Below are positions 18,900-30,212 of a DNA stretch of 64,000 nt, piece after piece. The DNA comes from Pseudomonadota bacterium. GTDB lineage: Bacteria > Pseudomonadota > Gammaproteobacteria > Burkholderiales > JAJZUU01. The first letter of the stretch is position 1. Every line of letters starts with the position of its first letter. Below the pieces are notes generated by a model that saw only the letters and a list, made by a program, of their open reading frames with translations, was not told where the DNA came from and ran no database searches. The stretch spans positions 1 to 64,000 of the forward strand of contig JAJZUU010000005.1 of NCBI GenBank assembly GCA_021848325.1, read 5' to 3'. A program made the translations under genes and the position numbers.

Positions 18900-20041
18900 A
18901 TGACGCAAACCCACTCCCGGCGCGGCAAGCTGCTGACCCTCCTGCTGCTTGCCGCTGCCCTGGGCACCGGCTGGCACTTCTGGTCCAAGGATCGCGGGGC
19001 GCAGCAGGCCCAGTACCGCACCCAGCCGGTGGACCGGGGCGACATCGTCCAGACCATTGCCGCCAACGGCACGCTTAACCCGGTGGTGCTGGTCAACGTG
19101 GGCACCCAGGTCTCCGGAACGGTCAAGCAACTCCATGCGGATTTCAACGACCGCGTGGCCAAGGGGCAAATCCTGGCCGAGCTGGACCCCTCCCTGTTCC
19201 TCGCCCAGCAGGCCCAGGACCAGGCAAGTCTGCTGAGCGCCCAGTCCAGCCTCAAGCTGGCCCGCATCAAGGAGCGGCAGCAACGCGCCCTTCAGCACCG
19301 GGGCTTCGTCTCGGAGGTGGACCTCGATCAGGCCGCGCAGGCGGTGGAGGCCGCCCGGGCCCAGGTCGCCCAGGCCCAGGCCCAACTGAAAAGAGACGAG
19401 ACCAACCTGCGCTATACCGTCATCCGCTCCCCGATCTCCGGCGTGGTGGTGGCGCGCAATGTGGACCTGGGGCAGACCGTCGCCGCCAGCTTCCAGACCC
19501 CCACCCTGTTCCAGATCGCCCAGGATCTGCGCCAGATGCAAATCGACACCAGCGTGGCGGAGGCGGACGTGGGCGACATCCACATCGGGCAGCCGGTGCG
19601 GTTCACCGTGGACGCCTTCCCCGATGCGACCTTTTTCGGCACCGTGAAGCAGGTCCGCCTCAACCCCACCATCCAGCAGAACGTCGTCACCTACAACGTG
19701 GTGGTGGCCGTGAACAACGCCGAGGGCAAACTCATGCCGGGCATGACCGCCCATGTGCACATCACCGTCGAAAGCCGCAAGAACGTGCTGCGCATCCCCA
19801 ACGCAGCATTGCGGTTCGAGCCCAAGCAGGGAGCGGAAACCGACGGAGGCGAACCGGGAACCTCCGTTTATCGCCTGGGGGCGGACAACAAGCTGACCTT
19901 GGTCAAGGTCAAAACAGGCATCACCGACAACACCTTCACCGAACTTGTCGGCGGCGACCTGCGGCCCGGCGACAAGCTGGCAGTCCGGCAGGTCGGCCAG
20001 GACCGGGACAAGGACTCCGGCGGCTTCAAGTTCAGGCTGTG

Positions 20042-20042
<1 letters not shown>
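18900..20042 (+). CDS. MacA-like periplasmic adaptor (membrane fusion protein)
   Basis: 380 aa. An N-terminal membrane anchor (about 11-25), biotinyl-lipoyl-like half-motifs (GTQVSGTVKQL and IRSPISGVVVARNVDLGQTV) flanking a coiled coil (about 98-155), then beta-barrel and membrane-proximal domains. Adaptor of a MacAB-type exporter that links the ABC permease to a TolC-like outer-membrane channel. Its stop overlaps the ATPase start (TGATG). Substrate unknown; macrolides, peptides or lipids are possible for the family. Confidence 0.9.
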
Positions 20043-20779
<737 letters not shown>

Positions 20780-20781
20780 TC

Positions 20782-20988
20782 CTAGGAGCCTGTCGGACTT
20801 GAAGAATCGAAGCGAAGCGGGTCAGGCAGGCAAGCCGCGTAGCGGCTGCTCGCAAAATTCGGCTGGCCGAGGACAGATTTTGTCGATTTTGCAGGTCAAT
20901 AGTCGTTCTATTGACCAAAAAAGCGGCGGAATATGGACCGGTCAGGTGGATTTGCAGCCGATTTCCTTTAAGTCCGACAGGCTCCTAG
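20782..20988. mobile_element. MITE family 1, copy 2 (longest copy, 207 bp with CTAG ends)
   Basis: Bounded by CTAGGAGCCTGTCGGACTT (20782-20800) and its perfect complement (20970-20988). Read as a transposon it is a 15-bp inverted repeat, GAGCCTGTCGGACTT, flanked by CTAG target duplications. It carries 39 bp in the left half that copy 3 lacks, and the same GGTCAATAG/CTATTGACC hairpin. No coding capacity. It lies 2 bp after the ABC ATPase stop codon. Confidence 0.9.
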
Positions 20989-28419: not shown

Positions 28420-28911
28420 TTAACGGCAGTTCGCCGGGGCGTACTTGGCCGGGAGGTTCCCTGCGGTCCCAACGGTGAGGCCGGCAGTAGTCGCGAAGCT
28501 ATTAGTCGCTGAGGCGCACGCCCATTCCATCGGACCCGTGTTGGTCGAGGGAAGGGCTGCTTTACCAATATTGGGGGTAAGAGTTATATAGTCCCCGGAA
28601 ATTTGGGTAGGTGTAGCAGCGCCAGTGTATGTGATGGTGATAACACCAGTCGTATCAGCCACATCCACACTAACCATTGCCGTTGTGATCGGCAAAGTCA
28701 ATCCAGACGAAGCTTTGGTAAATGTGCCGTTAGACTGATAGGTTTCGGCCACTGCGGTCTTAACCGCGTCCGCCACGGACAAACCCTCCGTCACTTTTGC
28801 GCGAATCGTGTAATCCTGATACGCCGGAATCGCGATGGCCGCCAGAATGCCAATGATGGCCACCACGATCATCAGTTCGATCAGGGTAAAGCCTTGTTGT
28901 ATTCGTTTCAT
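28420..28911 (-). CDS. pilA: Type IVa major pilin (PilA-like)
   Basis: 163 aa from the ATG at 28911 after AAGGAG. A short leader MKRIQQG precedes the class III cleavage site G7/F8, with [20 protein letters not shown] and the conserved E12 (E5 of the mature pilin). The C-terminal disulfide loop is C132-C162. The globular part is Ser/Thr-rich, offering O-glycosylation sites. Assembled into type IV pili for twitching, attachment or DNA uptake. Followed by a terminator and then by candidate glycosyltransferase genes. Minor pilins and assembly genes are elsewhere. Confidence 0.96.
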
Positions 28912-28970
28912 GATGTTGCTCCTTTTCAGGTTGGTCACGATGCAAACACGGATGTGTCTGGCAATTGTCG

Positions 28971-28986
28971 AGCAAGCTTTGTGCCA
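28971..28986 (-). promoter_or_regulatory. Sigma-54 promoter of pilA
   Basis: TGGCAC-N5-TTGCT on the minus strand, an exact match to the -24/-12 consensus, about 60 bp before the ATG and upstream of AAGGAG. Known type IV pilin genes use RpoN with the PilS/PilR two-component system, so the same control is likely here. A PilR site was not identified. Confidence 0.85.
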
Positions 28987-29241
28987 GTTATCGGCATGGG
29001 GGGCGGCACACCCGGCGAACCGGCCGCCGGGGCCGCACGCCGCGGCATTCGAAGGGCACCGGCCGCGCGGCCTGGGGTACGCCCGCCGGGCGGACGGCAC
29101 TCACCCTGAGGGCAGAAAGTGACGTTTTTCGTCACCCCGGATAGGGGCAGCGGTCTTCTCCGGGCAATCGAAGGGGAAAGGCGGGGCCGGCCGTCCTGCG
29201 CGCGGCGCTGCGCCGGCTATTCCTCGCCCGCTCATTGCCGT
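28987..29241. other. Non-coding region upstream of pilA
   Basis: No protein-like frame or RNA gene was recognised. As the stretch between a sigma-54 promoter and a mobile element it is where activator (PilR-type) sites would be expected. It includes a GC-rich tract near 29020-29100. Confidence 0.4.
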
Positions 29242-29409
29242 CTAGGAGCCTGTCGGACTTGAAGAATCGAAGCGAAAATTCGGCTGGCCGAGGACAGATT
29301 TTGTCGATTTTGCAGGTCAATAGTCGTTCTATTGACCAAAAAAGCGGCGAAATATGGACCGGTCAGGTGGATTTGCAGCCGATTTCCTTTAAGTCCGACA
29401 GGCTCCTAG
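29242..29409. mobile_element. MITE family 1, copy 3 (168 bp)
   Basis: CTAGGAGCCTGTCGGACTT (29242-29260) and its perfect complement (29391-29409), flanked by CTAG on each side. Identical in layout to copy 2 except for a 39-bp internal deletion in the left half. Sequence identity to copies 1 and 2 in the right half is nearly complete, implying recent spread. Located at the boundary between the pilA region and the tRNA-Lys-linked mobile region. Confidence 0.9.
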
Positions 29410-29779: not shown

Positions 29780-30212
29780 GGGCACCTCTATAAATCACTA
29801 TTTCCGCTCCACTCCCGATCTTAGCGGTTGATTTTTTTTTGGCGCACCGGGGTTTGCCTAAATATTGAGCAGAATATCCCGGTAGAGTTGTACAGGTGCT
29901 GGAGAACCAGCATCTTGAACATGAGCACCACGTCGATGGGCTTGGCTCCGGCGTTGCTCTTCCTTTCCCTTTCATGCACCCGCGCCAAATCGGGTCGAAA
30001 GGCTTCCCAGTTGATCTGGGCGTTGAGTTTCACCAGCGGGTCGCCCATCGCCGTTAACTTGGCGGTGCGCGTCTCGATATCAAAAAAACCGGGGGGGTGA
30101 GGTGCGGGCATTGGGGGATGGGGCGGTTGTAAGGGGGCTGCGTATTATCTCAAAATTCAGCTGCCGGCTGGTGCCTCCGGCGCGGCGGGAGGGTGAATTT
30201 TTAGAGGTGCCC
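29780..30212. mobile_element. Internally deleted IS5-type element with both ends
   Basis: Ends are GGGCACCTCTATAAAT on the left (29780-29795) and a matching inverted copy on the right (ATTTTTAGAGGTGCCC, to 30212), differing at one or two positions. Only 433 bp remain of a parent that would be over 1 kb. It contains the N-terminal part of an IS5-family transposase on the minus strand; the middle and catalytic DDE residues are lost. Both ends survive, so it could be mobilised in trans by a related IS. Confidence 0.75.
29821..30111 (-). pseudogene. Truncated IS5-family transposase
   Basis: The first about 75 residues (FFDIETRTAKLTAMGDPLVK, then FRPDLARVHERERKSNAGAK and DVVLMFKMLVLQHLYN) match the IS5-family N-terminal domain. 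The frame then continues into about 20 unrelated-looking residues through an internal deletion. The DDE catalytic core is absent, so it is inactive. It lies inside the IS remnant at 29780-30212. Confidence 0.8.

Follow-up and report, generated by a model that had tools for sequence, protein, structure and literature searches.

A CTAG-flanked MITE family with IS1182-like ends and a hairpin interior probably kept by selection on its fold

Roughly 100 copies of a short, non-coding repeat are dispersed through a 3.0 Mb draft genome. With its terminal inverted repeats, target-site duplication and high copy number, the element is a MITE. Our preferred reading, given a probability of about 0.6, is that this MITE is put into CTAG by an IS1182-type transposase and carries a separate, older hairpin module that is selected for its fold and can be combined with other ends. 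From sequence, we infer both the movement by an IS1182 transposase and the action of the hairpin as RNA.

The window (the whole 64-kb stretch of DNA that was analysed) holds three copies, at 1-118 (partial), 20782-20988 and 29242-29409. Their ends, GAGCCTGTCGGACTT and AAGTCCGACAGGCTC, are perfect 15-bp inverted repeats that each touch CTAG, and an apical hairpin, GGTCAATAG/CTATTGACC, lies inside. A preliminary description of this DNA had reported the three CTAG-flanked copies with their repeats and hairpin, and all were present as described. The features are given below.

1-114, + strand (sense strand +): copy 1, partial element cut by the contig start, with an exact right end at 100-114
1-99, + strand: core of copy 1, covariance model match of 70.6 bits
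115-118, no strand: CTAG flank of copy 1, from the sequence
20782-20785, no strand: left CTAG of copy 2 (target duplication), from the sequence; duplication seen at paralogous empty sites of other copies
20786-20800, + strand: left terminal inverted repeat of copy 2, exact 15-mer match
20786-20984, + strand: copy 2, a 199-bp class element in which a 39-bp stem-loop segment is added to the 160-bp form after about position 29
20840-20965, + strand: core of copy 2, covariance model match of 79.2 bits
20970-20984, - strand: right terminal inverted repeat of copy 2, exact 15-mer match
20985-20988, no strand: right CTAG of copy 2, from the sequence
29242-29245, no strand: left CTAG of copy 3, from the sequence
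29246-29260, + strand: left terminal inverted repeat of copy 3, exact 15-mer match
29246-29405, + strand (sense strand +): copy 3, 160-bp class element, from its ends, CTAG flanks and RNA fold
29261-29390, + strand: conserved hairpin core of copy 3, 114.5 bits on + and 19.5 bits on - with covariance model R1, of which it is one of the training sequences
29391-29405, - strand: right terminal inverted repeat of copy 3, exact 15-mer match
29406-29409, no strand: right CTAG of copy 3, from the sequence

Ten matches to the 15-mer end, with up to 3 mismatches allowed, were counted in the window; shuffled sequences gave a mean of 1.56, and 0/100 shuffles reached 10. Five matches were exact, all belonging to the three copies. 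Only accidental ORFs cross the element. The CTAG of copy 2 begins 2 bp past the TGA of an ABC-transporter ATPase gene (20039-20779), and 25 bp separate that of copy 1 from the TAG that ends a DsrE2-family gene (144-653, - strand). The neighbour of copy 3 is a type IV pilin gene read leftward (within 28420-29100); the copy lies on its upstream side, where no credible gene ends. The initial placement of all copies at gene ends is therefore right for copies 1 and 2 and wrong for copy 3 (2/3). In none of the three copies does the target CTAG supply the TAG stop codon of a credible gene. The DsrE2-family gene matched Pfam DrsE_2 at 163 bits, which fits a sulfur-metabolising host.

Genome counts were made by pattern searches and from retrieved loci, and 69 complete copies were compared. 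The 19-bp end CTAG[GC]AGCCTGTCGG[AG]CTT was found 99 times forward and 100 times in reverse (199 exact matches; reversed control, 0). Allowing up to 1 mismatch in the 15-mer end gave 103 forward and 110 reverse matches, against 1 and 1 for the reversed-pattern control. The count of about 100 copies goes far beyond the three first described. Among the complete copies, 36 were 160 bp and 31 were 199 bp long, with one of 200 bp and one 48-bp remnant. The sole difference between the two main classes is one 39-bp insertion, able to form its own stem-loop. In the 160-bp class, 17/36 copies equal the consensus and the mean is 1.2 differences; in the 199-bp class the mean is 1.0 differences from the class consensus. 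The copies are thus nearly identical and their amplification is recent, and the recent activity first proposed from near-identity is upheld. Many contigs begin or finish within an element copy, and the family accounts for many contig breaks in carrier genomes. When plasmids, phages and E. coli genomes were searched, one partial plasmid match was obtained and nothing else.

Some copies depart from the common form. The 48-bp remnant (L026 1337-1384; G000:C40) keeps both perfect 15-bp ends and is flanked by CCAG and CCAA, with no CTAG. One copy (L077) carries the same base change at both ends, G to C at position 1, and another (L015) carries C to T at position 5 together with its partner (GAGCTTGTC/GACAAGCTC). 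These double-ended changes suggest either paired change or conversion between the ends. At three loci (L351, L387 and L092) the left flank of the copy is CCAG and the right flank CTGG. These are complementary instead of directly repeated, which looks like compensatory change in the flanking CTAGs.

CTAG was present on both sides in 67/69 complete copies, so that the family is neither confined to the window nor variable in its flanks. Insertion duplicates CTAG (or its TA); because CTAG is palindromic, a 4-bp duplication of CTAG and a 2-bp duplication of TA give the same product and are indistinguishable. The duplication was read from empty sites that are paralogous sites within the one genome. 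These are provided by a second MITE, with ends TNA|TCCTAGAAACGG...CCGTTTCTAGGA|TNA, TNA duplications and a CTAG in each end. At three loci (L153, L145 and L168) a terminal CTAG of this second MITE is occupied by the element, with the layout TGATCCTAG[element]CTAGAAACGG...GGATGA in L153. Excising the element and one CTAG in silico from these three loci exactly restored the end of the second MITE as it is in uninserted copies. The outer TNA duplications of L153 and L145 continue to agree across the insertion. The second MITE, a landing site for the CTAG element, is 123-286 bp long with inverted ends and has 27 end matches in the genome; its loci are L145, L146, L153, L159-L164, L168 and L170.

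CTAG is scarce: trinucleotide frequencies predict 63 background sites in the window, and 20 are present. The preliminary description had proposed that insertions use CTAG in stop-codon contexts and avoid gene bodies. By counts that are approximate, the simple codon-usage gene caller having overlooked the ABC ATPase ahead of copy 2, a predicted TAG stop was overlapped by 16/64 insertions and by 13/89 uninserted CTAGs (Fisher P = 0.14; P = 0.39 among non-genic sites only), and 13/64 insertions against 34/89 uninserted CTAGs lay within predicted genes (P = 0.02). The stop-codon preference was not borne out beyond what the scarcity of CTAG within genes would give. For the most part, insertions lie at gene ends because that is where CTAG is available, with a mild depletion from genes in addition. 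Orientation relative to genes was not biased (21 same, 18 opposite, P = 0.75).

A profile search that used three relatives was run on other genomes of the class and gave full-length IS1182-family transposases, 450-453 aa long from the first start codon and above the cut-off of NF033551 (IS1182). Two intact 452-aa transposases (L339 and L341) scored 375 and 362 bits against this cut-off of 270, and their elements have exact 15/15 ends with CTAG on both sides. Thus a gene with the same ends, for which IS5 and IS1182 types had been proposed, is found elsewhere and is of IS1182 type. Near-identical ends with CTAG surround L337, L338 and three copies in one genome (L340, L344 and L346). An exact-ended element of 1578 bp (L202) has a frameshifted transposase, and one of 1263 bp (L203) has a 5'-truncated transposase gene. 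In the element's own genome, an IS1182-family gene (L091/L115) has the left end CTAG CAGCCTGTCGGGCTT, which agrees with the element at 13/15 positions, and is truncated near its 3' end. An intact cognate IS1182 transposase was not found in that draft assembly, whose contigs are broken by repeats. At E 1e-8, a matching transposase was absent from 15/16 searched genomes, nearly all of them core carriers; one of these, the complete single-contig genome G519, has at least 18 core matches yet no such transposase at that threshold. Possible reasons are loss of the mover, its intermittent presence, or movement by a different enzyme. Even so, an IS1182-type transposase is the best candidate mover, and this is the best-supported inference from the ends.

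A 108-bp stretch is shared at 99% identity by window positions 29780-29887 and L091 2589-2695. It follows the truncation point of an ORF at 29821-30111 (- strand), IS5-like by eye with no Pfam match, and also that of the genome's IS1182 transposase gene. It is possibly a third repeat family.

Beyond this genome, a scan of named genomes for both ends 115-145 bp apart yielded at least 79 distinct elements, of which 74 of those listed were 159-161 bp long. Hosts included Burkholderiales, Pseudomonas, Endozoicomonas, Thioalkalivibrio, Halothiobacillus and Lysobacteraceae; a small number of records, mostly metagenome-assembled, were labelled Nitrospirae, Nitrospirales or Deltaproteobacteria. Extensimonas vulgaris is an example of a carrier in culture. 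Most listed elements align over their full length with a window copy at identities down to about 68%, and each aligned element folds end to end into one hairpin. The arms vary between hosts while complementarity is kept, RNAalifold giving two-sided changes in 35/37 pairs.

Covariance model R1 was built from the interior only, with the terminal repeats excluded, from 32 training sequences. In an alignment, itself fitted to R1, of 48 sequences outside the training set, 88.6% of cells were paired and two-sided changes were found in 48/56 pairs. Covariation in this set was 0.555. Shuffling lowered it to 0.180 (sd 0.008) and sliding the partners by 1-3 columns to 0.146 or less, these controls not being tree-aware. 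Three internal-loop regions are conserved in sequence: AGCGA opposite GCAG; GAGGACAG opposite TGGACCG; and, around the apical stem, GAGGCG opposite TAACGA, or a GC-paired variant in beta-type members. Several internal-loop positions are invariant across 25 representatives. At E 1e-6, the R1 core was detected in 36/185 genomes of the class. In Rfam no family scored above its gathering score, and a relaxed threshold gave only sub-gathering matches to miRNA and IRES families. No description of the element family turned up in the openly searchable literature (queried by end sequence and by IS1182 with CTAG; ISfinder and most subscription papers lay outside the search).

Although the ends were never shown to the model, most R1 matches lie inside CTAG[GC]AGCCTGTCGGACTT or close variants. 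The core also occurs within CTAGGAG[GC]CTGTCCGAGAA, TTTAGGGCGTGTCCCTAAAG, CTAGGGTCTGTTTACAATGGGTT and TTTAGTGCCTGACCGAGAAAG, and within both AGAGACTGTAAAAGTATTC and AGAGCCTGTGTAAAAAC ends in one genome; the end types other than the first are also written GAGGCTGTCCGAGAA, TTTAGGGCGTGTCCC, GGGTCTGTTTACAA and GAGACTGTAAAAGTATTC. The core is thus found with at least five sets of terminal repeats. Conversely, ends of the first type occur without a core match (L242, L265, L197/L204, L198, L201 and L218), so the elements of the end scan are not all one family, as L242 and L265 show. The IS1182 elements with matching ends have no core by R1. Ends and core assort separately, which is hard to square with a mere deletion remnant. 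Tentatively, the interior could be a mobile structured RNA or strand-specific hairpin module that swaps transposon ends, its fold conserved across much of the class and the module also present in a few records that are labelled as other phyla; we hold this broader view with less than even confidence.

The fold is not symmetrical between strands. On the sense strand, G.U outnumbered A.C by 142:53 in 34 representatives of less than 85% identity, against a ratio of mean 1.43 and maximum 1.62 in 300 column shuffles. In the 25 representatives that the model had not seen, the counts were 96:41 (ratio 2.34), which exceeded the shuffled maximum of 2.16 only slightly. Fold energy was better on the sense strand in 75/77. 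Copy 3 with its flanks gave -97.8 kcal/mol (z -12.3) on the sense strand and -69.5 kcal/mol (z -9.1) on the opposite strand, and + is the sense strand of both complete window copies. Within the own genome, the element has two common polymorphisms, at columns 43 and 123 of the 160-bp class. Both exchange C and T opposite G, turning G-C into G.U on the sense strand. The asymmetry therefore points to selection on a folded single strand. That strand would most likely, and most simply, be RNA, with single-stranded DNA as the alternative.

On the preferred reading, the element would be a non-autonomous transposon of two modules, ends and interior. The 15-bp inverted repeats would derive from a subgroup of the IS1182 family whose transposase acts in trans, putting the element into CTAG and doubling that palindrome. 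The interior, of about 130 bp, would be an older and independent module. It forms one long hairpin in which three internal loops are conserved, and selection on the fold of one strand would maintain it, most likely in a transcript and possibly in single-stranded DNA; in other bacteria it would pair with other ends. Possible roles of the hairpin are to stabilise or process host transcripts, to bind a host protein through its internal loops, or to serve the transposition complex. The last is disfavoured as its only role because the ends differ. Readings as a bridge RNA (IS110), as attC or as a single-strand origin were also considered, and a DDE-type partner with terminal repeats tells against the bridge RNA.

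The same observations can be read otherwise. The element might be an ordinary IS1182-derived MITE with a neutral interior, its arms held complementary by template switching or end-to-end conversion during replication. Long palindromes are corrected by such conversion, and the paired changes at both ends of L015 and L077 in the own genome are what conversion predicts. Such correction would, however, perfect the arms and erase the loops, which are instead conserved in sequence over distant hosts; nor is it expected to favour G.U over A.C on one strand, and it leaves the same core with unrelated ends unexplained. We consider this explanation unlikely.

Unlikely too is that the hairpin is read as single-stranded DNA, in replication or transfer, by a transposase, a recombinase or a host protein, as in REP or attC. 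The same strand-specific fold would be expected, with G.T pairs tolerated; the core is mobile and in high copy number, and the IS1182-family element IS1272 reportedly acts on stem-loop targets (PMC5678879). But the enzyme proposed as mover is a DDE-type transposase with terminal repeats of the usual double-strand kind. The core is missing from full IS1182 elements that share these ends and is thus dispensable for their mobility, and it is also found with different ends. As for the mover, a transposase outside IS1182 (for example of IS5 or IS630 type with a CTAG preference), the IS1182-like ends being convergent or borrowed, would accommodate the quite different ends in some core carriers and the lack of an A1-like IS1182 gene in most that were searched; MITEPsy1, with IS5-like ends, also targets CTAG or YTAA (PMC3189936). 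Against it stand the agreement at 15/15 end positions and the CTAG on both sides of intact IS1182-family elements (L339, L341), with several unrelated genomes involved. The IS5-type gene of the own genome (L090) was considered as mover and rejected, having no matching ends nearby. A mover outside IS1182 is judged highly improbable.

Bacterial MITEs are usually treated as decaying transposon remnants. An interior whose shape is kept over distant hosts while its ends are exchanged is what would be expected of cargo or of a read signal, not of a remnant. The family is common (36/185 genomes of the class) and present in many copies, its target is clear, and both empty sites and a candidate transposase are available, which makes its mobility and the function of its hairpin directly testable. 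The preliminary description was right in seeing a recent CTAG MITE and in naming IS1182 as one possible type of its partner, erred on the stop-codon preference, and missed the covarying interior that has different ends across the class.

Among known systems, the IS1182-family elements found here equal the MITE in terminal repeats and CTAG flanks, and its interior is not IS1182 sequence. Within that family, ISPsy36 reportedly has the palindromic 4-bp target GGCC (PMC8027508). IS1272 reportedly replaces stem-loops and makes no duplication (PMC5678879), whereas the MITE duplicates CTAG. MITEPsy1 of Pseudomonas syringae is likewise small and active and has CTAG or YTAA as its duplicated insertion site, but is 100 bp long with ends GGAAGGTCTGAAAAAGCC related to the IS5-family ISPsy2, and no such core is described for it (PMC3189936). 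ERIC, or IRU (RU-1), of enterobacteria resembles the element in being non-coding, palindromic, of near-constant length and present in many intergenic copies with a long stem-loop. Its published description sets it apart, with TA termini and a length of about 127 bp (PMC2229807, PMC2759123), where the present element has CTAG and 15-bp repeats. YPAL, or RU-2, of Yersinia (about 168 bp) is also palindromic and multi-copy, with internal inverted repeats and duplications of 3-26 bp (PMC2229807), and the element here measures 168 bp with both CTAGs. Identity with YPAL/RU-2 was weighed for this equal length and rejected: the published sequence (PMC2759123) has no CTAG-bounded repeat and, by eye, no core boxes. 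ERIC and YPAL/RU-2 are the nearest analogues in form; their termini and duplications differ.
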